Shown: positions 4,092-36,809 of the stretch, piece after piece
Numbering within the stretch: position 1 is the stretch's first letter
How the letters are laid out: the number at the start of each line of letters is the position of its first letter
Assembly: GCA_009829735.1 (NCBI GenBank)
Contig: CM020619.1
Coordinates: 14,561,777-14,625,776 of the forward strand
Direction: 5' to 3'
Length of the DNA stretch: 64,000 nucleotides
Source: Pyropia yezoensis
Lineage: Eukaryota; Rhodophyta; Bangiophyceae; Bangiales; Bangiaceae
Notes under the pieces: model-generated
The model's database searches: none
What the model saw: only the letters and a program-made list of their open reading frames with translations
Told to the model about the DNA's origin: nothing
Made by a program: the position numbers and the translations under genes

Positions 4092-6101
4092 ATGAGCGCA
4101 ACGGACCTGTCCCTCCACGAGGCCGCTCAGGAAGGCGACGCGGCGGCGGTGGCAGCGCTGCTGGACGCGGGGGCACCCGTGGCGGCCACCGACTGCTTTC
4201 GAGACACGCCCCTCCACCGCGCATCCAGGGCCGGCCACGCAAACGTGGCGACGGCGCTGCTCGCCGCCGCCGCGCCCGTCAACGGGGGCGGCCTGTTTGG
4301 CAACACCCCGCTGCACGACGCGGCTGGGCGTGGCTTCCCAGACGTGGTGGCGGTCCTCCTGGCAGCGGCAGCACCGGTGGGTGCGTTCAACGACCGCTCC
4401 GACACGCCCCTGCACCTGGCGGCCTCGTCTGGTCACGCGCCGGTTGTGGTGGCCCTGCTGGCGGCGGGGGCGCCCGTGGGGGCAGCCAACAGCCGACGCG
4501 ACACGCCCCTCCACTGGGCGGCCCAGGGGGGTCACGCGGGTGTGGCGGCCGCCCTGCTGGCCGCGGGAGCGCCCGTGGGGGCGGCCAACGACGACGGGGA
4601 CACGCCGCTCCACTGGGCCGCCGAGGCCAGTCACGCCGACGTTGCGGCGGCGCTGCTCGCCGCGGGGTCGCCCGTGGCAGCGGCCAATGGGCAAGGTGAC
4701 ACGCCGCTCCACTCTGCGGCCGTGGCCAGTGACGTGGAGGTTGTGGGGGCCCTGCTTGCCGCGGGGGCATCGGCGGGGGCGGCCAACAGGGACCGCGACA
4801 CGCCGCTTCACAAGGCCGCCAGCGGTGGTCACGCGGCAGCGATGGTGGCGCTGCTGACCGCGGGCGCGCCGGTGGGGGCGGCCGGAAAGTACGGTGATAC
4901 GCCCCTGCATTGTGCGGCGACCGCTGGTCACACAGAGGCGATGGCGGTGCTGCTGGCGGCGGGGGCGCCCGTGCACGCGGTCAACAACCATCGTGATACG
5001 GTGCTTCACAAGGCCGCCAGTGTCGGTCACGCAAAGGCTGTGGCGGCGCTACTGGCCGCGGGGGCGACCGGCTCGTACGCCAACAAGAGCCATCAGACAC
5101 CTCTTAGGATGGTCTCCTCCCACATCGACCTGGGGCTCGTAGAGCCTGCGGCCATGGAGAGCACCTATCGGCTGCTGGTGAGGTGGGGTGCGACGAGGCC
5201 AGGCATCTCGTTGCCTTCGGCCTCTACCCAAATGGCCCGTCGCCTTTGGAGGGCGCAGAACCCTTTCGTGTTGACGGCAAGGGAGCGGGAGGTTGCCAAG
5301 GAAGCGTGGCGAAAGGCCGCGGCGGAGGCGGTCGCCAAGGCGAATGGGGCTGGCCAACCGACCCAGTCGGCCGCAGGCGCCCTCGCGGACCATATCCGTA
5401 TGGCGGACGGGGCTGCTGGCAGCAGGCGCGGCGGCGCCACCGCGCCCTCCTCCTGCTCCGAGGCGGACCCTGACGTGACGCCCGGCAGCACCGCGGGGCG
5501 CCCTTTCGTGTCGGGGGCTGTCCCGCTGGCAGTGGGGAATGGCGCCGCGGCGGCTGACGTTGACGTTGCCCACAGTGGCGGCCGACAGCCTGCGCGTGCC
5601 CCCGCGGCCGGCGCGCCTGGCCTGGCCCGGCCGGCCTCCCCGTCGCCAGTTTCGCCTCCCGCGCCTGCCGCTTGCCCATATGCGCCCCTCTTTGAGGGGG
5701 GTGCTGCCACGGAGGGGGTGGGCGCACCGCTGGGGCGGGCGGGCATCGCAACAGCGCCGTTTGGCCGGGACTTTTTTGCGGGCGTCCTCGGCTGGAGCTA
5801 TGATACGCTCACCACCAAGCTGGTGGCGTTTGTGTCAGCCGGCTACGGCCCCGCCTCGGTTCAGTTTCTTTCCGTTTCCGTTCGCCGCCGTATCGAGAGC
5901 AACTTCCTCAACGGCGCCGCGGTCGTGGGCATTGGGGACGCGGCGGTGGCCGAGACCGTGTCGCTCATGTTGGACAGCGATTGGCAGGACCGCCCAGGGG
6001 CGGTTGCGGCCGTGCAGCTGTTTATCAGGGAAGCCAAGGCGGCAGGCCAGGCGGACAGGGTGGCGGCTGCATCGCTGCGGCGGGCGCAGCCGCAGGGGTG
6101 A
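4092..6101 (+). CDS. Ankyrin-repeat protein with unknown C-terminal region
   Basis: A 669-residue protein starts at the ATG at 4092. The frame is open for another 366 bases upstream, but that part is Pro-rich leader, so the start was placed where repeat-like sequence begins. Residues about 5-370 form eleven consecutive 33-residue ankyrin repeats with the D-T-P-L-H...A-A..G-H......L-L-A-A-G-A-P-V pattern. These usually bind protein partners. The last repeat is degenerate. Residues about 370-530 are Ala/Pro-rich linker. The last 110 residues regain complex composition (DFFAGVLGWSYDTLTTKLVA and SNFLNGAAVVGIGDAAVAET) and may be a folded domain that I do not recognise. There are no signal peptide, membrane segment or catalytic motifs, so a cytosolic scaffold is likely. 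Intronless. Confidence 0.88.
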   Translation: MSATDLSLHEAAQEGDAAAVAALLDAGAPVAATDCFRDTPLHRASRAGHANVATALLAAAAPVNGGGLFGNTPLHDAAGRGFPDVVAVLLAAAAPVGAFNDRSDTPLHLAASSGHAPVVVALLAAGAPVGAANSRRDTPLHWAAQGGHAGVAAALLAAGAPVGAANDDGDTPLHWAAEASHADVAAALLAAGSPVAAANGQGDTPLHSAAVASDVEVVGALLAAGASAGAANRDRDTPLHKAASGGHAAAMVALLTAGAPVGAAGKYGDTPLHCAATAGHTEAMAVLLAAGAPVHAVNNHRDTVLHKAASVGHAKAVAALLAAGATGSYANKSHQTPLRMVSSHIDLGLVEPAAMESTYRLLVRWGATRPGISLPSASTQMARRLWRAQNPFVLTAREREVAKEAWRKAAAEAVAKANGAGQPTQSAAGALADHIRMADGAAGSRRGGATAPSSCSEADPDVTPGSTAGRPFVSGAVPLAVGNGAAAADVDVAHSGGRQPARAPAAGAPGLARPASPSPVSPPAPAACPYAPLFEGGAATEGVGAPLGRAGIATAPFGRDFFAGVLGWSYDTLTTKLVAFVSAGYGPASVQFLSVSVRRRIESNFLNGAAVVGIGDAAVAETVSLMLDSDWQDRPGAVAAVQLFIREAKAAGQADRVAAASLRRAQPQG

Positions 6102-11429: not shown

Positions 11430-12432
11430 GCATGGAGTAACTGTACGAGCCCACCTCTTTCGTCGAGGTTCGGGCTGGGCCACTGGGATGGCGCTGAGGC
11501 AGCACAGCGGCGATCGTCCAGCATGCCTCAATTCAAGGCCTCTCAAATCGTTCAATATCTGTGACGACCGACAGACACCTGTCCGCATTAGCTGTTCATT
11601 ATCCGCCAGCCAGCCTGCCCACCAGCTGCCGCTATTCGTGGGATGCACGCTCGTTTCCACGGTGCGGACGACGACGGCTCATACTGGTGCCCTCGACGCC
11701 GACCGCTCCCAGTATCTATTAGATAGTGTGTTCGAGTTCGAGCGGGAGCACAGGAGCGCGACGCGTGGCCCGTGACAGGGACCATTTTGGTGGCCGCACC
11801 GGGCCCCCCGCTGCGCCAGATCGGCACCCGCCCTACCCCCGCCGCGGCCGCGGCCGCCGCGGCAGCATCGGTCGCCGCCGCCGCCGCCCGCGGCCGCCGC
11901 CGCCGCCGCGGCGGCCGCCGCCGCCACCGCCACCCCCGCCGCCCCCGCTGCCCGCGGCCGCCGCCGCCGCCGCCGCCCGTGGCCGCCGCCGCCCCTGCCG
12001 CCTGGTCCGACGCGGCCGCGGCCGCCGCCGCGGCTGTCCGCGGCCGCAGCGGCCATTGCTGCTGCCGCCGCCCCCGCGGCCCCCGCCGCCCACTGGCGCG
12101 GCGCTGCCCGCCGCCGCCGTTATCGTTGCCACTGGCCGTGATTGCGGGCAACGCCGCCACTCCTGCCGTCCGTGCCCGCGGCCGCCGCCGCTGCCCGCCG
12201 CGGCCGCCGCTGCGGCGGCACCGGGGGCTCGCACCGCCTTCCCTCGACGGGCGCCCGCTGCGGGCACCCGGCTGGCCCGCGGAGTGGCGCACCCCGGCGC
12301 GAGATTCGCGCGCGCAAACTACGAGCCGCCGCTACCAGTCGCCGCATTCCCCATCCGCCGCCGTCGCCACCAGTGGATGACGACAAACCCGGGCAGTCGC
12401 GGGGCGTGGCGCTGGGGAGCGGGGAGAGCGGT
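11430..12432. other. Intergenic, GC-rich triplet repeats
   Basis: 11430-11760 is mixed-composition sequence without a convincing frame. From 11830 to 12300 GCC/CCG-type triplets give Ala-, Pro- and Arg-rich shadows in every frame. No gene can be chosen. Confidence 0.4.
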
Positions 12433-12520
12433 TGTGGTTGGGGGGGGGGGGATGGCAGCTGTGGCTCGGGGGGGGGGGATGGCGGTTGTGGCTGGGGAGG
12501 AGGGGGGGTGGCTTATGTAG
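12433..12520 (+). repeat. 27-bp G-rich tandem repeat
   Basis: About three copies of a unit built on tgtggctggggggg...gatggcgg start at 12433, 12460 and 12487. The long G runs make quadruplex formation likely on this strand. Confidence 0.7.
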
Positions 12521-13868
12521 CTGGTGGGGGGGGGGTGGCGGTCGTGGTCACGCCTGCGGTGGTCGGAGGAGCGGGAGGAACGGCGGCCGCACAGGTGCCG
12601 CTGTGGTGGGGACGCCGCATGTCCGCGTTTCTTGCCGTAGAAGGGGGGGGTTGGGTGTCGGGGCGGGGCGGGCAGGGTGCTCGGAGGGGAGGTAGTCATC
12701 GGGGTGGGAGGTGGGGCGGCAGCGACAGTGGTGGCTGCGCTGACGGGTGGCGCCGCGCCGGCGGCGGTGACGGGTGACGAGCGGGCCGCGACGGTCAAGG
12801 TAGCTGCGGCGGGGGGGCGGGTGCGCGGGTGATGGTGGCGAGTGGCGTCGCGCGGCGGGGGCGGCGGGCGGGGAGGGGTGGGGAGTGACGGCGGGCTCCA
12901 AGTCTCCACCGTCCGTCCCCCCGGCCTGCCACCGCCCGACGGGGCGGATGCGTCCGCCGGCGGTGGCGGCGGCTCGGTGCCTGCTCCAACCGCCGCCGCA
13001 CCGCCGCCGGCCCTTGCCCCCAGCACGGCGCCCTGCGCCGCCCGGCCGCTAGTGTGGGGGCTAGTGGCGGCGGTTCTGGCTGTGCCAGGGTGGCCAAAGG
13101 AGGGGATGGCCCCCCCCCCGGCCAAGCGGCGACACCCCCCAGCCGCGCCGCCCAGGCCGCCGCAACTCGCCGCCGCAGACCCGTCCAGTGCTGCCGGTGC
13201 CGCCAGTCGCCACCCCCGCCGCTCCGCCGACGCCCGTCACCGACGCCCCGCTGCGCCGCCGACACGGGGCGCCTCGGCGGCGGCGTGACGGGCCGCACCT
13301 GCGGCTGAGACGGCGGCGGGGGGGGCGGGCAGAGACAGAGCACACCCCTCCGCCCAGCGACACTCCCGCTGCCACCGCGAGCGTACACGTCGCCCCAGTC
13401 CACTGCCGCCGACCCGCTCGTCACGGCCGACGGGCCGCTGGTGGCCAACCCGCCGACGCTGTGGCTGGCCGTCGCGGCCGTCACCGCCACGTCGCCGGTG
13501 GGGGGCCGAACAGGGCGGCCGCCTTGCATGTCGCCCCGACCACCCGCAGCAGTGGAGGAGCGGCCTCTGCCGTCGCGGCGCCCCACCATCGAGGCGGCGA
13601 TGCCGCCGCAGCGGCCGACGTGACGGCGGCGGCCCGCCCGCGTGCGGTGGTGGGCGCTGCACTAAAGTTTAGTGCGGCTGCCGTCTGCGGACGGGTGCCA
13701 TTGCCACCAGCTGACTCGGCGGCCGGAGACAAGATCTCCACGACGGGGGAGAGAGCATCATCAGGAGGAACAGCGCCGGCGTCAGGGGGGGGCACCGCGG
13801 CAACACGGCGGTAGTGGCGGAGGAGAGGGGTGGTGGCGACAATAGACTACTCTATTTAGGAGAGGGGA
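12521..13868. other. Low-complexity GC-rich stretch, coding status unresolved
   Basis: Frames on both strands are long but biased. The most protein-like reading is plus strand at about 13390-13520 (VTADGPLVANPPTLWLAVAA), which could be a piece of an interrupted gene. No start, splice pattern or family supports a call. Confidence 0.3.
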
Positions 13869-27185: not shown

Positions 27186-28197
27186 GGCTGCAGAACCTTG
27201 CGGCCTGCTGCCCTGGTTGCGCCTACGAGCGCCACTCGCCCCCTACAGCTCGATATGGACTGGATCAGTGCAGTCATCCGCGTCTTTTCGAGCGGAGAGC
27301 GACGGGCATGCCAAGAGGTGTTTGGTAGGGGAGGGGGGGATAGAAGCGCAGAGTGCTGGCGCGCTGCCTTTATCGTCTCGCCCCCGCGGGGCCTCGCCGT
27401 CTACGCACAAAACCCTCCGTCGGTCACAAATCCCGACCCGTCCGATCGGGCCCAGCCAATGGACCCCACACTCACAATCCCATCGGGAAAGACACTCTGT
27501 CCCTGACAGGGACTTGGGGCCGCACACCCCTTTCCCTGAACAGCGTGCGCAGGTGGCGCGTGCGACGGCGGCGTGGGGTTTTCCCCTGCTGCAGACACCA
27601 GTGGGAGGGTGCGCGGCACCGCCGCCGCCGCCCGCCGTGCAGGCCAAAGCCGGCCATTTAGATAGCAGTGAACGAGCAGACAGTCTGCTGTTCTGCCGCA
27701 GCTGTCGTGCCGTGGGGGGCGGGCGCGCCGCCCGCCCGTCCCGCCCGTCCCGCCCACGTTACACGTGGGCGCCCCCCGCGCCCGCCGCGGCGGTGCGAGT
27801 GGCGGCCAAGCCGTCGTGCCCATCCACGCCGCCGGTTGAGGCGCAGCACCGGGGCAGACCGCCGCACGCGTACAATGCCCTGCCCGCCGCCCGCCAATCG
27901 GCTGCGCTCGGCCACTCCCCCCCAGGCGCTGTGAGCCGCCAGCGTGGCGCTGGCGCGACGCGCGGCGTGGACCGAGTACCCTCCACCGCCGCCGCCACGC
28001 TGACCGCCACCCTATCCGCCATGGCCAGCCGGACCGACGTCGCCGTCACCACAGAGGCCGACACTTTCGCCAGACGCCGCCGCCGCCGTTGCTGCAATCC
28101 CACGGCCGTCGCCGTCAGTCCCCAGCCCCACCCCCGAGGGGTTTTCCACAGACAACGCCCGTCGTCACCGCCGCAACCGCCGCTGCCACCACCGGCG
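27186..28197. other. Intergenic, GC-rich up to the rDNA block edge
   Basis: No supported gene. The plus strand has a long open frame (26914-28527), but it overlaps the previous gene in another frame and lacks domains. GC content drops abruptly at about 28198. Confidence 0.4.
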
Positions 28198-28288
28198 CGC
28201 AGTATAACAGAAGTACTTCACAAATCATCTGAGCTGCTTGCAGAAGGCAGCAAATCACTAACACGCAGCCAGATACTGTCACATCATA

Positions 28289-28860
28289 TCAGGAGCGTGG
28301 GGTACGAAAAAGGATTCGTATACAGCGGGTTTGTCGGTAATATCCGCGAGAAATGGTCGCACCGCGGCCCGATCTTTGTCCTTCTGCCTCAGCAACTTGA
28401 CGAGCTGAATATAGCCCATCACGTCTCGACGAGATTTTCAGCGTTAGCGCATTTATATTTTTGTCACCGGGGACGCCCTCCATGTACGCAGTGCTGGCCC
28501 CTCCGTACTGTAAACAGTGAGGGGTGAAATCAAGGTCGTCGAGGGCTAACATGGATGGCGCTCGGTGAATGCGGTTCCGGAAGGTCATCCGGGCTGAATA
28601 ATAAGTTTTGGTCGTGCACCAATCCTGGCCTGTCAATGCGGCGGCCTCTTTCCGCCGGTTGATTAGACGCGCTAGTAGGATGGACAGCCACCCGAGGCGC
28701 ACCATCCCGGACTGGTCGCGTCCGGTCTTGATCTTCGGGATTTAAATGGCGGCGTGCAATCCATGCACTGGCTGGCGTAAAAAAATACATCACTCGCCTT
28801 CATGGTAAGAAAGCCAGCCAGGCGCAGGAAATCACTTGAAAATGAGGAGGATTGCGTCTT
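28289..28860 (-). pseudogene. Tyrosine recombinase catalytic domain remnant
   Basis: At about 28850-28770 a frame reads FLRLAGFLTMKASDVFFYAS, matching the first catalytic Arg motif (R..E...L...DV). Further on, in a different frame, 28289-28705 holds LDDLDFTPHCLQYGGASTAY followed by MEGVP. This corresponds to the HxxR box, (T/S)PHSLRHGGAT, of DIRS-type recombinases. The box Arg is replaced by Gln (HCLQ), and frameshifts separate the parts, so the enzyme cannot work. A Tyr in DGLYSARQ may be the nucleophile region. Confidence 0.6.
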
Positions 28861-29042
28861 AACCGTCCGGGTAGCCGCTCAGTAGCTGCTGATACAGAAA
28901 TCCTCATGCAGCCTCCCGGGGGCATACCGCATGTGGGTTTACACTGTCCTTGTGCTTATTCGCCAACCCCTGCATAGTCATTTGACACAGGGGCATTCTT
29001 CCCTTCAATTGTGAACAGCAAAGGACAGACCAGACAGGGCCT

Positions 29043-29258
29043 TTAGAACAATTTGTCGTTTTGCACCCTCAGACTTTCTTCGATATCCCGAGCATACTCC
29101 ATAAATAGTGTATGCATCGACTCAGTGTCATTTGGGTCATATTCGCGATCCGGCAGCCACTTAAAGAAAGGTCGCACTGCTGCATCATATTCGCCCGCCG
29201 TTCTAGCGCCTAACCTCCCACTCGCCAGCCGAAACTGTTCTTGAAGGTTCATTGGCAA
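29043..29258 (-). pseudogene. Tyrosine recombinase N-terminal domain remnant
   Basis: The frame reads LASGRLGARTAGEYDAAVRP then FFKWLPDREYDPN and FMEYARDIEESLRVQN. This resembles the helical SAM-like DNA-binding domain at the start of tyrosine recombinases (..T...Y...W..F..WL......P). It ends at a stop before any catalytic residue. It sits directly after the RNase H remnant, as in DIRS elements. Confidence 0.6.
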
Positions 29259-29280
29259 GGTTTAGTTCCGAATTCATATC

Positions 29281-29505
29281 TTACATTTTGAGATGTAGAT
29301 TGGTGGCCATGGCGAGGGCAGCCACTCGACGGCAGATTTTATTAAAGCTGTGTCGGCTACTGCGACCCTCTTGTAGGGCGTGTAAAAGTGACTGATTATC
29401 GACCAGAATGATCACACGAGCCCCAAAATTCGTCGAGCTGCGCACCAACCAGCGCAACCCCATGATCAGCGCTTTACGCTCCAACAGGTGGGTTTGCCGC
29501 TGGGT
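29281..29505 (-). pseudogene. RNase H domain remnant (retroelement)
   Basis: The frame NETQRQTHLLERKALIMGLR leads into ARVIILVDNQSLLHALQEGR and KICRRVAALAMATNLHLKM before a stop. The E of LERKAL and the D of VDNQS match acidic catalytic positions of retroelement RNase H, and LVDNQS..HAL..GRS is typical of DIRS-type elements. The domain is cut short at its C-terminus. It lies in a different frame from the gag-like fragment upstream. Confidence 0.7.
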
Positions 29506-29506
29506 T

Positions 29507-29713
29507 TCATTTTTGTGAAATATCGCAGTTCACAGAGAGAGCCACTTCATACACCTCAAGAGACGCCACGTCTCGAAGCCGGCGCTGAAAGATAGCTAAG
29601 GCTTGATGAGCACGGACGACAGTTTCGTCTGACTGGTGCACACCACTGTCCAAGGCGTTTAGCTTTGGTCGCTTCCCGGACGACGGACCACCCGGCATAA
29701 TGAACCAACTCAC
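29507..29713 (-). pseudogene. Gag-like N-terminal fragment of the DIRS-like element
   Basis: The 68-codon frame MSWFIMPGGPSSGKRPKLNA continues with DETVVRAHQALAIFQRRLRD and ends at a stop within cacaaaaatga. It starts only about 20 bases from the break with 28S sequence. It is probably the N-terminus of the element's first protein, fused by deletion to the RNase H region. No direct domain match is visible, so the gag label comes from position. Confidence 0.4.
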
Positions 29714-29735
29714 TGAAGGTGTCTTGATTTGTCTA

Positions 29736-29789
29736 AGAGAGTCATAGTTACTCCCGCCGTATATTCGCGCTTAGTTGAATTTCTTCACT

Positions 29790-29823
<34 letters not shown>

Positions 29824-32115
29824 CGCCAACACCGTTTCCGGTCATCGCTATGCTATGTTTGTACTAAACAGTTGGATTCCCCTTGTCCGTACCAGTTCTA
29901 ATCCGTTCGTTGATCGCAAGCGGGAAGAGACAAGAACGGCAAGCGCTCCTGCCTCCATCGACACGGTTTCTTCCCACAAGCCGCGTCAATCCAGCCTCCT
30001 AAGAGGCTAGACGTGTGCCGCTCCTTGGCGTCTACGCCCGCGCGTCCCAACAAGCCCGAACATTAGAGCCAATCATTTCCCCAAAGGTACGGATCTATTT
30101 TGCCGACTTCCCTTATCCATATTATTCTATTGACTAGAGGCTGTTCACCTTGGGGACCTGATGCGGTTATGGGTACGGCCAGATGTGAGAATTCCTCGTC
30201 TCACACAAGTGTAAGACGGCTCCTTTCCTCTGGATTTTCATGGGCCATTACAAGCGTTCCGAGCACCACGATACGTGCGGTGCTTTTCCGGCCTTTCGCC
30301 CCTTATCTCCGGACAAGCCGATTCCATGGGGTTGGGCGCATTAAACAGGAAAGAGATCCCTGCTCGGAGCTCCTACGGGCGTCCCCAAGTTCAGTTGCGT
30401 TGCCGCAAATTGCGGTAACCATGGTTTTCACATCCTGGTGCGGGAATGTTAACCCGCCTCCCTTTCGATGGAGTGCGCTGCAAGAGCGCACTTGAATACG
30501 AAGTTTCCCCATCTCTTAGAACCGACTAACTCACGTCCAAGCACTGATCGCGTGAATTCCCCACTTCAGTCTTCAAGGCTCTCACTTGAATATTTGCTAC
30601 TACCACCAAGATCTACACTAGGGGTCGCTCCACCCGAGCCTACGCCCAAGGCTTCCATGCGAGTGTACCGTGTTTCAAGATTTTCACGCCCTCCTTCTCA
30701 TTCAGGCTTCGAATTTACCCCAACGGCGACGCCTCGGTCCCCCGCTTGAGCGCCATCCATTTTCAGGGCTGATCCATTCGAAAGGTGAGTTGTTACACGC
30801 TCCTTGGCGGATTCCGACTTTCAGGGCCACCGTCCTGCTGTTCGTACGAATCAACACCTTTTCTGGTGTCTGAATGAGCTGGGAGTTTTGCACCTTAGCG
30901 TCGCTTTCGGTTCATCCCGCATCGCCAGCTCTGCTGACCCAAGTCGGCCCACTGAGAGCAATCATTGTCCGCACGGCGTTCATTGTTTTAATCAACGTTG
31001 CCGGCTCCTCACCTATTTAAAGTTTGAGAATAGGTCGAAGGAGTTACTCCCCCGAGGCCTCTGACCATTTGCTTTACAGGATGATACTGACTTGCGTTTG
31101 CTCCCGCTATCCTGAGGAAAACTTCGGAGGAAACCAGTCACTAGATGGTTCGATTAGTCTTTCGCCCCTGTACCCAAGTTCGACGTGCGATTTGCACGTC
31201 AGCATCGCAACGAGCCTCCACCAGAGTTTCTTCTGGCTTCGCCCTACTCAGGAATAGTTCACCATCTTTCGGGTCCCATCATACTCGCTCTGCCTCAAAA
31301 CCAACCACCCCGAAGGGATCGGGGTCAGGTGATGGTGCTCTCCGTTACAAGAGCAGGGTTCCCACCAAGTAGCAGCGCAGAGCCACCATTTACTTGCATT
31401 GTGCGTTCGGGTATTAACCACCCAAACACTCGCGATTATGTCAGACTCCTTGGTCCGTGTTTCAAGACGGGGTGGAGAAGGCCATTTTGACAGTGCCCTC
31501 ACTCGACACGTCGCGGATTTCTTGGCCGGGGTGCAAGCTAGAAAGGAGTAGAGGCGGGAAATGAATCCTTCACCCACCTCCCCGTTAACACCCGCCCCCG
31601 GCCGGCGCTGCCCCGGGAACAAGAACGCTACTGTGCTCTATGACAGGCACTTAGGAATCTGGCCCCATGATCACTGACTTCCTTCGCTGCACTCTTAATG
31701 GTTGCAAGCCCTGTTTCACTAACTTTTCAAAGTTCTTTGCATTTCTCCCTTACGGTACTTGTACGCTATCGGTCTTTCGATAGTATGTGGCTTTAGATGA
31801 AGTTTACCATCCACTTAGGGCTGCCTGCCCAAGCAACCCGACTCATCGTAAGGTCACCGTAACGCATTGCACACCGGATCACAGACGGGGTTATTACCGT
31901 CTACGACACCCCACTTCAAACGGGATTCATACCCGGTGCGACGCAGGCGACACCCCTTTACTATGCAACCCGAAGGTAAGCGCGAGCCCCCTTCGGTTTT
32001 TATATTAAGCTCTTCCTGCTTCGCTCGCCGCTACTGAGGGAGTCCTCGTTAGTTTCTTTTCCTCCGCTTAACTAAGTGCGTAAATTCAGCGGGTGGTCCT
32101 CCCTGATTGGAGATC
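29736..32115 (-). rRNA. 28S (LSU) rRNA gene, 3'-truncated copy
   Basis: The 5' end is recognisable at about 32115 (CACCCGCTGAATTT then TAAGCGGAGGAAAAG). Conserved blocks follow across 2.4 kb, ending with AAATTCAACTAAGCGCGAAT and AACTATGACTCTCTTA. Normal 28S continues AAGGTAGCCAAATG; here it breaks within a few bases of that point. The sarcin-ricin loop and the last kilobase are not found in the window. Conserved words are altered (GAATTTACGCACTTAG in place of GAATTTAAGCATATTA), so the copy is probably non-functional. The truncation point is the R2/I-PpoI/L1925 region. Confidence 0.85.
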
Positions 32116-32589
32116 GGGTTATTGAAGAAACACGCTCGTCAAGGACTGGCAGATGCTCAGGAAAAACGAGATGTAAAGGATCTCCCGCCGTCGAACACGA
32201 CCCGCCTCTTCGCCTTGTGATACTGATTTCTTTTCAAGCACGCTCCAGAGGGCAACTCCACTGAGACGGCACCTGTTTCTACGTCAGAAAAAAAAACAAG
32301 AAAGGTCCAAGAAAAAGAAACCCCAGAGAGGCTTATGGAAAGTAACCAACGGCACCTGGCTTGAAAGTGAATCACTGCAGACCTACTCAAGACGTTCACT
32401 CCGACTTGAGAGACACGAAGCTTGAAACTCATGGTCAATGACCTCCAGCGGGCAGCGATACGTGTTTCGGGTGACGCCTGTTTCAAGAGAATGGGGCGAC
32501 AAAGCCCATCACACGCATGCACTATATTTGCCAAGGAGGCAGGAGGGTAGAGAGCTCATTTTCGTTATGTATTGTTCTTCCCATCGACA
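32116..32589 (-). other. ITS2
   Basis: The spacer lies between the 3' end of 5.8S (GCATGCCTGTTTGAG) and the 5' end of 28S. It contains A-rich and T-rich runs and no conserved rRNA words. Boundaries are good to about 10 bases. Confidence 0.75.
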
Positions 32590-32750
32590 CTCAAACAGGC
32601 ATGCTCACATTCTCATGGAGATGAGCACAACTTGCGTTCAAAAACTTAATGATTCACGAAGTCCACGAAGTCCTGCAATTCACATTAGTTATCGCAGTTG
32701 GCTGCGTTCGTCGTCGTTGCGATAACCACGACATCCACCGCTAAGAGCTT
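32590..32750 (-). rRNA. 5.8S rRNA
   Basis: About 160 bases from GCTCTTAGCGGTGGATGTCG to GAGCATGCCTGTTTGAGTG. The core GAACGCAGC, TAATGTGAATTGCAGGAC and TTTGAACGCAAGTTG is clear. A small duplication (GGACTTCGTGGACTTCGTG) interrupts the usual GAATTGCAGGACTCCGTGAA block, which fits a decayed copy. Confidence 0.85.
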
Positions 32751-33144: not shown

Positions 33145-33675
33145 CGTGTTTTTTTCTCATTATATCGGAAAACTTTCCACCCTTTCTGGGCTGACATGGC
33201 TCTCCTGCGCCCACTTTTCATGGGTACCTTCGTCACATGTGACACTGCTCTCGCAGGGGACCGACTATCTCTTAAGCTTCTTCTTTTCTTACTTCTGTAG
33301 ATGAAGCCCCTTCCCTTGCAGTCTGTGGACCTTCCTAGTAGCCACAAAGAACCTTAGGGGCTTGGCTTCGGATTTCCCATTGTGCCATTCAACAAAGCAA
33401 TTACCATCCGCCTGGGCGCTACCCCGACTGCTGCGCCGAACGCTTTCACGTCAAGCCGCGGTGCTCGTTGACGTCAGAGTTCTCCCGCAATTCGAGAAAG
33501 TCGCAGCTGTTCCGTGACAAGAACCGCTGCTGGCGTTGACCACAAAATCAGTATTTATAGTCGCGGACTGTGCACCCTTTCTGGCCGAAGAGGCATCGTG
33601 TACGCTTTCCTACGGAAGGGGACATCCGAATGGCGCAAAGAACGCCATGAGTGCCCACCCACACAAAAAACGGAA
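33145..33675 (-). other. Group I intron in 18S at position 1506
   Basis: Exon ...GACAAGGT stops at 33676 and resumes TTCCGTGGGTGAACC at 33144. The 531-base insert starts TTCCG and ends in G. R-like GTCCACAGACTGCA (about 33319-33331) and S-like AAGAGATAGTCGGTCC (about 33258-33273) give the P7 pairing of group IC1 introns. Position 1506 is the second classic Bangiales site. Related introns carry a His-Cys box endonuclease on the opposite strand; I could not recognise one here. Confidence 0.85.
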
Positions 33676-34755
33676 ACCTTGTCATGACTTCTCCATTCTC
33701 TAAATGATATGCTTTAATGAGCTTCACACGGCTACCGCTTTGGACGTGTCCATCACACTAGCCGCGATCCGGACATTTCATCGGACCATTCAATCGGTAC
33801 GAGCGATGGGCGGTGTGTACCAAGAGCAGAGACGTATTCGGCGAAGGCTGATGACCTGCGCGTACAAGGAATTCCTCGTTGGAGATCAAGAATTGCAATG
33901 ATCTATCCCCAGCACGATGCACTATCAAAAAGTTACCCGCGCCTTCCGACCCAGGACTGTCAAGTGAAACTCGTTGAGTGCATCAGTGTAGCGCGCGTGC
34001 GACCCGGAACATCTACGGGCATCACAGACATGTTATTGCCTCAATCTTTCATACCCTAGACGCGCATAGGCCCTCTAATAAGATAAGCACGCAGTGCTGG
34101 CATGCGCGCACCTATTAAGCAGGACGAGGTCTTGTTCGTTAAAAGAATTAACGAAACATTTCCCTCCGCCAACGAAGAACGGCCATGCACCACCAACCAA
34201 AAAAACGAAGAATGAGGTTTCAGTCTGTTAATCAGTCTTCTGCCTGGACCTGGTAAGTTCTCCCGTGTTGAGTCAAATTAAGCCGGAGGCTCCACTCCTG
34301 TTGGTGCCCTTTCGTCAGTTCTTTTAAGATTAAACCTTGCGACCATACTCCCACCAGGACCCAAAGACTTTAGCTTCTCTCAGGGTGCTGACGGAGTCAC
34401 TAAAAGTGCCCCCGCATATCCCCAGTCGGCCTCGATTATGGTTAAGACTACGAGGGTGTCTGATCGTCTTCGGCCCCCTCACTTTCGTTCTTGATCAATG
34501 AAAATATTCATGGCAGATGCTTTCGCAGTTGCTTTGAGTACTTTCCCTTCTTCACAGGAAACGGTCGGCCCGCAGATAAGCGCGCAGAGACAGTCAAGGC
34601 CTCACACACCGCGTCCCGAAATAAGGAGACAAATTCCCACAAGCAACAAGGCAACAGCGCGGCCCGTTGGGGCTCTCCGAGGTCCGACTACGAGCGTTTT
34701 TACAGCGCCAACTTAGATATACGCAATTGGAGCTGAAATTGCCGCGGCTGCTGGC

Positions 34756-35270
34756 CATTGCCACCCGACGACAGCCCCTTTGTACTGTCGCCCTCCACAG
34801 TCCTTTGGGGCGAGCATTACCCCGTTACGACTGTGGACCTGGTTTCCCAGTGGATTGGACTCTTCCATAAGCTTGCGCCCACTCCATTAGAGTCTCTGAA
34901 GCTTTGCCTTTGCCCTGTGGGCTGTGTCCTAATAATGAAATGGCACAAGCCGGCACTCGCGCTTCCTTTCGGATCAACCTTACCCTTGACGTCCATGTAC
35001 TACTACGTACACTGCTGCGTCCTGAACGCTTGCTCGCTCTCACCTCTTCGAGGACCGCGGTATTCAAGGCCTCCCGGGCAATCCCCGGCAATTTAGAAGT
35101 TCATGAAGAGGGCTCTGTGGTTGGACACTATTCTAAGCCGGGTTTTCCATTGTTTGCCTACTCGCCTTACACACGGCCGTGCAGAGAGGAACAAGCCCAT
35201 GCATGGCGCGCTTCCAGAAAGAGACATCTGGCGCCGTTGGTTTTTGATGAGGGCTTTGCTGCATACGTTT
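34756..35270 (-). other. Group I intron in 18S at position 516
   Basis: Exon sequence GGCAAGTCTGAT is interrupted at 35270 and resumes with GCCAGCAGCCGCGG at 34755. The 515-base insert follows an exon T and ends in G, as group I introns do. Core elements R-like TTCAGAGACTC (about 34891-34900) and S-like AAGAGTCC (about 34858-34867) can form P7. Insertion after position 516 is a known site in Bangiales. No homing-endonuclease frame is seen. Confidence 0.85.
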
Positions 35271-35823
35271 ATCAGACTTGCCCTCCAATGGGTCCTCGAT
35301 AAGGGATTTAAACTGATCTCACTCCAATAAGAAGACCCAAAGGGCCCCCTATTCTTTTGTTTTGTCACTACCTCCCCGAGTCGGGATTGGGAGCTTTGCG
35401 CGCCTGCTGCCTTCCTTGGATGTGGTAGCCGTTTCTCAGGCTCCCTCTCCGGAATCGAACCCTGATTCCCCGTTTCCCGTCGACACCATAGTAGACCAAT
35501 ACTTTATCATCGAGATTGAATACGGCAGAAATTTGAATGACGAGTCGCCAGCACGAGGCCATCCGATCCGACGAGTTATTGTGAATCATCTCAAAGCGCT
35601 CCGGAAAAAGCACGACCCAATAAATACTACCCGTCGAAAGTCGGGCGTTGAGGCGTGTATTAGCTCTAGGTCACTACGGTTATCCAAGTAGTGTCGTTTC
35701 CAAAGGAGCTAGAACTGTATTAGTGAGCCAATCGCAGTTTCACGAGTATGCAAGTGTTTGTACTTAGGCATTCATGGCTTAGTCATCAAGACAAGCATAT
35801 GACTACTGGTAGGATCAACCAGG

Positions 35824-36809
35824 TAAATAGGTACGTCAAGGGTAGAGCCGCGGGCCGGGTGGTGAAGTCAAAGGGCAATCTGTCTCCCGGCGCGCGTTCT
35901 TGGACCATGTCCCAAACAAGAGGGATGCATACCACAACGCGTCCACAGGTGCTGCGGCACAGCTGCTCAGGCAGTTCCTCCATATTGCAGGTGTGTCGGG
36001 TGAAGAGCGAACAGGAGTCGCAGGGTGGGCCAGTGAGGCCGTGACCAAGGGTATGCGACAGCGCGTCGTTTTCCCCACTAGTTTTTATCAATCATATTGA
36101 TTTTTTTCCCCCCCCACTTGGGGCATCATGCCAACCACCGCGAGGCAGCCGACAGGTCACTGTCCTAGAAAACACATACGTGCGTGTCATGCTTGTGTTT
36201 TGTTTTTTCCTTTCCAATCGAAGATTGCGCTGCGCAATCCCTAAACTAGGGATTGTGCCAACTACAGTGTGAGGGCGGACCCCGCATGATGAATGACTAC
36301 CTTCGCCTCTCACTTAGACAAGCTTCTGGCTCTGCATGTAGAATGACCGTCGGGGCATAGATCGAATGCTATGCCATGAAATAAAAGGTGCACCCCCAAA
36401 ACAAAGCGATTCCCACACGGCGTCAAGCAAGGGAAGTAGACTAAGAACTATTTCATTCAGAATGTTGCTCTTCCCCATTCTACGTGGATTCTTTTCCGCG
36501 CGTGCACATGACATTAATGATTTTAGGCATACGCACTCTCTGGAGCCTCTGGGCAACGCCCAGAAAGATTCCTTTATTGTACCAGGCTATTTCATTGACA
36601 GCAGGCCAAGGAAGTCACAGCACTTTCTGTACCTAGGTATACTCTATGACAAAGCAGAAGGGCGTCGTAGAATTAGAAAACAGTGAAGGCATTTTCCCAA
36701 TTGGACGCATAGGAGCGAGCAACTATCACCATAAAGATGCGTGCAGAGCACCGCCTTTGCGTGAGGGCACCACTTTGTGGAAAAGGATCCCTCTAATTGT
36801 CTTTATATG
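35824..36809 (-). other. 5' external spacer side of the rDNA block
   Basis: Lower-GC DNA upstream of 18S with T runs and no convincing gene. A short near-palindrome with gggattgtgcc lies around 36230-36260. The abrupt change to GC-rich coding sequence at about 36800 marks the edge of the rDNA block. It may contain the RNA polymerase I promoter; no known motif is recognisable. Confidence 0.5.

Follow-up and report, generated by a model that had tools for sequence, protein, structure and literature searches.

In Physarum polycephalum, the gene of the homing endonuclease I-PpoI lies near the 5' splice site of its intron, Ppo.L1925. We take the L1925 position of the large subunit (LSU) rRNA to be directly after CTCTCT, which presumably places an insert there a few bases from the cut position of the R2 retrotransposons. 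An excerpt of PMC3679873 gives L1925 as the site of both the Tetrahymena intron and the Physarum intron with I-PpoI. In the Bangiales, an excerpt of PMC2585584 reports that the P1 extension of S1506 introns of Porphyra, close to the 5' splice site, carries His-Cys homing endonuclease genes (HEGs). I-PpoI at L1925 and the HEGs of Bangiales at S1506 are therefore already in print, as far as these excerpts go. The DIRS-order elements, including the tyrosine recombinase (YR) retroelements of the genome studied here, carry RNase H-like pieces followed by recombinase-like pieces on one strand, and the locus described below shows the same order. The DIRS papers PMC3266345 and PMC6681497 contain no red-alga terms, and PMC8752119 contains no DIRS, rDNA or tyrosine recombinase. 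In the excerpt of PMC2806351, DIRS appears as a reference set only, and a copia-like element of Porphyra yezoensis is cited. Our literature search of open-licence PMC gave no report of an L1925 His-Cys HEG fossil with a nested DIRS-type element in a red alga. To that extent we rate it as new, and the kinds involved are already known.

The window is the whole stretch of 64,000 nucleotides of Pyropia yezoensis DNA that was analysed, and the assembly that was searched holds 107,475,971 bases in 11 contigs, of which the three large ones are 43.59, 34.33 and 29.39 Mb long. The rDNA unit of the window lies on the minus strand and is decayed, and its LSU halts at L1925. The preliminary description had advised a search of the assembly for more copies of the junction between 28S and insert, and two were found, at C2:1232868 and C3:26585019 (the C2 and C3 copies), which makes the window, at 14561777-14625776 of the same scaffold as the C2 copy, the third locus. 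The features of the window are as follows.

33649..35825, minus strand: SSU rRNA pseudogene (Rfam RF01960, 967 bits)
33242..33566, minus strand: group I intron close to the 3' terminus of the SSU (Rfam RF00028, 61.6 bits)
32585..32749, minus strand: 5.8S rRNA (Rfam RF00002, 113.8 bits)
29736..32093, minus strand: 5' two-thirds of the LSU rRNA, ending at L1925 (Rfam RF02543)
29531..29735, minus strand: first part of the L1925 insert, containing the beginning of an I-PpoI-like HEG, common to the three loci and leading into the His-Cys box frame of the C3 copy
29530..29531, minus strand: deletion scar, about 658 bp missing in the alignment with the C2 sister copy
29284..29529, minus strand: RNase H-like fragment (LLERKALIMGL, ILVDNQSLLHAL), protein 75% identical in the C2 copy
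28292..29261, minus strand: putative tyrosine recombinase pieces in several frames (motif only)
29046-29261, minus strand: recombinase subpiece, core-binding-like by eye (motif only)
28292-28741, minus strand: recombinase subpiece with TPHCLQYGGAST (motif only)
28318-28387 (93%) and 28193-28273 (90%), minus strand: end pieces common with the C2 copy (alignment)

From its position, we take the group I intron to be at the S1506 site. The SSU pseudogene has a 157-nt deletion against the other aligned copies, seen as a gap of 157 columns at 34531/34532, and the LSU is 6.6-7.5% different from the three best LSU copies of the assembly. These three differ mutually by 1.4-2.2% and are called best copies with no claim of functionality. 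Elsewhere in the window, 4344-5070 consists of tandem 99-base repeats (TRF unit) that look ankyrin-like by eye. A stretch of 517 columns at 12206-12716 is 93% identical to positions 739-1253 of the extract L010 near the C2 rDNA fossil, and is a dispersed repeat present at both loci.

The end of 28S at the I-PpoI position was confirmed. The last LSU rRNA bases are AACTATGACTCTCTTA on the minus strand at about 29734, and the terminus reads ...AACTATGACTCTCT|TA (29736/29734), where the TA (29735-29734) can be assigned to either exon or insert. The Rfam LSU matches (RF02543) end at model position 2328 of 3401. At all three loci the insert sits directly 3' of LSU CTCTCT(TA), the C2 copy reading ACTTTCT with one substitution. 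Since the same junction is present at three loci, it is unlikely to be a lone assembly artefact. On the other side, neither Rfam nor a second search, in which the best 25 of 59 matches for the window and the best 25 of 70 for C2 were considered, gave a match to the 3' LSU beyond the insert, either in the window or within 20 kb at the C2 locus. The top match of the L043 query was to the group I intron stretch or the upstream SSU/ITS part, not downstream of the insert, and the remaining ones were short GC-rich matches. On these matches we rejected a resumption of 28S beyond the insert, and in neither locus is the element found between two stretches of 28S. The block common with the sister copy reaches left to 28193, and not to 28198 as first given.

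The sequence that adjoins 28S belongs to a homing gene. A three-copy alignment showed that the first ~200 bp of the insert (29735-29531) are common to the window, C2 and C3 at the same 28S position, and in the C3 copy they run into an open frame of 112 aa. This frame matched I-PpoI in PDB (E=1.9e-7) and the His-Cys HEG family PF05551 in Pfam (E=3.9e-10), with a His-Cys box at I-PpoI spacing. Counted on the alignment, it keeps H98, C100, H110, N119 and C125 of I-PpoI at matching positions, with Trp in place of C105. A figure legend in PMC8395846 names these six as zinc or active-site residues. In a protein search of the assembly, the C3 protein was matched only in the C3 and C2 copies, the C2 piece having E=6.7e-27 and two stops, and the His-Cys box was absent from the window copy. 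The window keeps only the HEG start, with an ATG at 29698, 38 nt past the exon end. The window start had no match of its own in Pfam or PDB, and the C2 piece had no significant one in PDB; the identity of both as HEG follows from their DNA homology to C3. This also settles the frame that had been noted as gag-like. We rejected the gag reading because the segment that holds the ATG leads into the I-PpoI-like HEG in C3, where the searched retroelement-like pieces were not found. Over the common HEG stretch, C2 and C3 are 22% different, with 9, 11 and 30 differences at codon positions 1, 2 and 3 (p=0.0003). The differences fall mostly at third positions, and therefore the HEG lineage was probably once under selection; to judge from the sequences, the C2 and C3 lineages probably split while the protein was still being selected. 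These copies are evidence for a putative I-PpoI-type homing gene that the red alga would once have had at L1925.

In its LSU position and its His-Cys endonuclease family, the insert agrees with Ppo.L1925 and I-PpoI, and the 38 nt between exon end and ATG are comparable to the closeness of the I-PpoI gene to the 5' splice site. It differs in its red-algal host, in being known from broken copies, in the lack of a recognised ribozyme core and in the change of Cys105 to Trp in C3. With the Porphyra S1506 HEGs, again as excerpted from PMC2585584, it has in common the Bangiales host and a degenerating His-Cys HEG near the 5' splice site, whereas those lie at S1506 of the SSU on the complementary strand and the window HEG lies at L1925 of the LSU in sense. 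We infer from its position and its HEG type that the L1925 insert was a group I intron. No group I core was found by Rfam in the window insert (28100-29760, E up to 5) or by a permissive Rfam search beyond the HEG of the C3 locus (extract L011, 1000-5200, one unrelated match), a silence that says little because Rfam also misses the L1923 insert described below and the region expected to contain the core has been lost. In C3, the final LSU bases and the spacer resume about 140 bases past the HEG, which means that this unit lost any core and nearly all of the 3' LSU through deletion. All three HEG-bearing units (window, C2, C3) are broken, with no ribozyme core and almost no 3' LSU in the stretches examined.

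The preliminary description had placed a DIRS-type element at the R2/I-PpoI site within a few bases of 28S. In the window, the retroelement-like part starts at 29530, 204 bases past the 28S end, and it does so at the deletion scar. The C2 copy aligns with the C3 HEG as far as CACCATGAATGG and then switches to unrelated sequence, which contains TDASLTGG and the RNase H-like piece; the retroelement-like sequence of C2 thus begins inside the HEG. Compared with C2, the window is without ~658 bp (insert positions 213|214 in the window correspond to 216|875 in C2), and the missing part, kept in C2, comprises further HEG sequence together with the beginning of the retroelement-like stretch. It is because of this deletion that the RNase H-like piece adjoins the HEG start in the window, as the preliminary description had seen it. 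From the C2 anatomy and the window deletion, it follows that 28S and the element are not joined to each other, and none of the findings indicates targeting of the R2 site. The locus resembles R2 insertions in its position, a few bases from the R2 cut, but it has no 3' 28S junction and its resident insert is a HEG relative. The retroelement-like pieces that were searched were not found at the C3 locus, nor anywhere else in the assembly beyond the window and C2.

Taken together, we consider it quite likely that the locus is a nested fossil of two parasites, with a HEG at L1925, a second element inside it, and later duplication and deletion. As position and homology suggest, an L1925-type group I intron with an I-PpoI-like His-Cys HEG near its 5' end would first have homed into an rDNA unit. 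A retroelement piece, probably of the tyrosine-recombinase (DIRS) type, would then have ended up inside the HEG, an anatomy that is seen in C2 and whose cause we can only suppose; the remaining HEG is missing, as are any ribozyme core and the 3' LSU. The dead composite would next have been duplicated to two places on one scaffold, as the divergence supports with one contrary result, and both copies would have decayed without coding constraint. Finally, as the alignment shows, the 658-bp deletion removed the middle of the window copy and brought the RNase H-like fragment beside the HEG start, giving the false look of a retroelement on the 28S site. The other suggestion of the preliminary description, that a dead element had reached a broken rDNA end by recombination, comes close to this history; the element-like sequence meets the HEG and not the rDNA.

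The second element had been labelled as RNase H and tyrosine recombinase. The two peptides quoted for it, ILVDNQSLLHAL (29374-29409) and TPHCLQYGGAST (28490-28525), were confirmed on one strand with 28S, that of the rRNA, and the motifs stand, but the support from profiles is weak. Three motif patterns, which were defined after viewing the sequences, were present in one insert or the other and had no further occurrence in the window. In the pieces given to Pfam, no RNase H or recombinase domain came above cut-off, and the matches below it were DUF2582 (E=0.12), HARP (0.13), Exu_RNase_H_like (0.1) and DUF2695 (0.19). NCBIfam also gave none above cut-off (the best was an acetoacetate-CoA ligase model, 0.049), and PDB gave nothing for the RNase H piece and one meaningless chain (E=1.4) for the recombinase piece. 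No relatives of the pieces were found in IMG/VR or GTDB contigs. In PHROGs, the window piece matched the RNase H family phrog_531 at E=0.079, and phrog_35934 was matched at 0.18. The database searches thus came near to the complete lack of profile similarity under which the preliminary description would have given up its label, and did not fully reach it.

The same genome harbors YR retroelements, with 34 matches to PF00589, of which 12 are above the curated cut-off and 15 lie in open frames of 1,343-1,424 aa. Some YR frames form head-to-tail arrays, with a constant spacing of 4,959 bases at C1:39063250-39078480, of 4,957 bases at C3:2365024-2370364 and of 4,681-4,682 bases or multiples at C1:28368919-28402006, a pattern that looks like repeated integration of circles at a single place. 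For our own YR profiles, open frames were sought at 18 YR places, and the profiles were built from 14 fragments each of RNase H and recombinase. The C2 RNase H piece is collinear with the YR RNase H profile and scored 7.1 bits, which 9 of 5,000 shuffles equalled; the window piece scored 3.0 bits (296 of 5,000 as good). A profile of the window and C2 pair scored 18.7, above the 17.8 given by the best of 100 column shuffles, but the hhalign probability was only 2% (E=0.024). The recombinase piece scored -0.1 bits. The top frame against these profiles (11.1 bits) was an unrelated antisense frame of C3, and pooled shuffles of all frames reached up to 10.9 bits for RNase H and 14.3 for recombinase. 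Unlike in the DIRS order, inspection by eye of the open frames in both copies revealed no reverse transcriptase, and an 89-aa frame of C2 just upstream of the RNase H region had no Pfam match. Terminal repeats were not found either: the two ends of the C2 stretch match, in inverted or direct orientation, over 9-10 bases at best, which says little because the stretch is truncated. No close relative was found in the genome, and the profile scores are weak.

The retroelement-like part could instead be decayed sequence of another origin, whose RNase H and recombinase motifs are products of chance or of over-reading. This would account for the silence of Pfam, PDB and NCBIfam, for the missing relatives among viral and GTDB contigs, for the practically zero score of the recombinase piece, for pooled shuffles that beat the RNase H pieces, and for the low hhalign probability. 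We regard it as somewhat unlikely, since it would leave to chance the collinearity of the C2 piece with the YR RNase H of the same genome, the pair profile above all its shuffles, the phrog_531 match and the post hoc motif patterns. That the retroelement-like part derives from a YR retroelement appears fairly likely.

Another possibility is that the endonuclease made a double-strand break in the rDNA, which was repaired by joining to a retroelement from elsewhere, so that the 3' half of the gene was lost. The three HEG-bearing units, with no core and almost no 3' LSU in the stretches examined, are what such breakage would leave, and the return of LSU 3' end and spacer within ~140 bases of the HEG in C3 points the same way, as does the element-like sequence of C2, which starts inside its RNase H region. 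However, the break in C2 lies inside the HEG and not at the cleavage site, and the other dispersed rDNA copies are also partial matches, so that breakage has no need of an endonuclease. We consider this route unlikely.

The history of the two sister copies was examined from their divergence. Between the window and C2, the HEG start is 9.8% different, the RNase H/recombinase stretch 15.1%, the LSU 12.3% and the two end pieces 7.1% and 9.9%. The differences at codon positions 1, 2 and 3 number 18, 9 and 15 in the RNase H piece (p=0.22) and 4, 7 and 4 in the HEG start (p=0.55). Neither shows a bias, and both copies were therefore probably dead when they diverged, as far as codon positions can tell. 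Derived changes shared by window and C2, counted against the three best copies, came to 32 of 1,848 sites in the SSU (5.5 expected), 8 of 462 in the S1506 region (1.1 expected), 7 of 354 in ITS1 (0.7 expected), 1 of 153 in 5.8S (0.3 expected) and 17 of 412 in ITS2 (1.6 expected), and part of the changes in the spacers may have arisen on the branch of the best copies themselves. In the LSU, they came to 7 of 2,295 against 3.1 expected, and the LSU tree splits the pair, the window grouping with C3f and C2 with C1g (supports 0.611 and 0.601). The SSU count supports a common ancestor and the LSU result does not, for which later gene conversion is a possible reason. As they stand, the LSU tree and the few shared LSU changes fit poorly with the common dead ancestor of the nested-fossil history.

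The homology of window and C2 stops at the same base, 28193, and the similarity of the flanks is not above that of control windows. In the 5' direction, the window rDNA reaches about 983 bases upstream of the SSU, while the C2 block runs on for at least 3,156 bases through spacer, which indicates a copy made at the DNA level, spacer included. A simple segmental duplication does not explain the common end at 28193 with unrelated flanks. An imperfect repeat of ~25 bases flanks the window block, with one copy at 36846-36822, where 13 bases separate it from the rDNA edge, and the other at 28190-28166; it is suggestive but no proof, and it is equalled by 2.3-2.6% of random window stretches. On account of the same 3' end, the different 5' ends, the unrelated flanks and the flanking repeat, one could propose that the machinery of the element moved the chimera of rDNA, HEG and element as one unit and so scattered rDNA through the genome. 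We hold this to be very improbable; if true, a retroelement would have helped to disperse the rDNA.

The site-specific or chance insertion of a DIRS-type (YR) retroelement at the R2/I-PpoI site of 28S, as first proposed, is hardly credible, for it can claim the 28S end with element-like peptides on one strand and a junction at more than one locus, but it is largely contradicted by the I-PpoI-like HEG start that occupies the site in all three copies, in C3 with no searched retroelement-like piece and a continuation into the HEG, by the element-like sequence that starts inside the HEG in C2, and by the lack of 3' LSU on the far side in the window and 20 kb of C2. With it, the claim of a new target specificity of DIRS elements falls away.

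The other rDNA copies place the L1925 insert beside a second one. Our rDNA search gave at least 41 SSU and at least 39 LSU matches, including those of the window, and the units are scattered across all three large scaffolds, for example at C3:11339243, C1:14160759, C2:21563600 and C2:21590961. Eleven of the 39 LSU matches reach the L1925 site, and all 11 were inspected. Three of them carry the L1925 insert (window, C2:1230500 and C3:26585019). The other eight carry a different insert 2 nt upstream (L1923), reading ACTCT|TAAACA... or a near variant, as in the LSU of C1:14160759, C3:11339243 and C3:16770993. Five of the eight show the 3' exon CTTAAGGTAGCC, one of them with six differences, and in the remaining three it was not recognised. 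The insert is 448 nt long in the two copies measured and has a terminal G. In six of the eight, GGGAGTC could pair with the exon GACTCT like a group I P1. Rfam did not recognise the insert as group I even at E 10, and it is perhaps a group I intron. The L1923 position lies in the middle of the I-PpoI target, so that an insert there would split it. From the 8-to-3 split and this target, we infer that the L1923 insert and the L1925 HEG compete for one site. This would be a case of two selfish introns competing for a site in which the winner shields the gene from the loser. The other SSU and LSU matches are at 71-94% identity, and further group I introns lie downstream in LSU copies, at 2496-2861 in L043, at 1742-2036 and 2840-3014 in L046, and at 971-1268 in L047.
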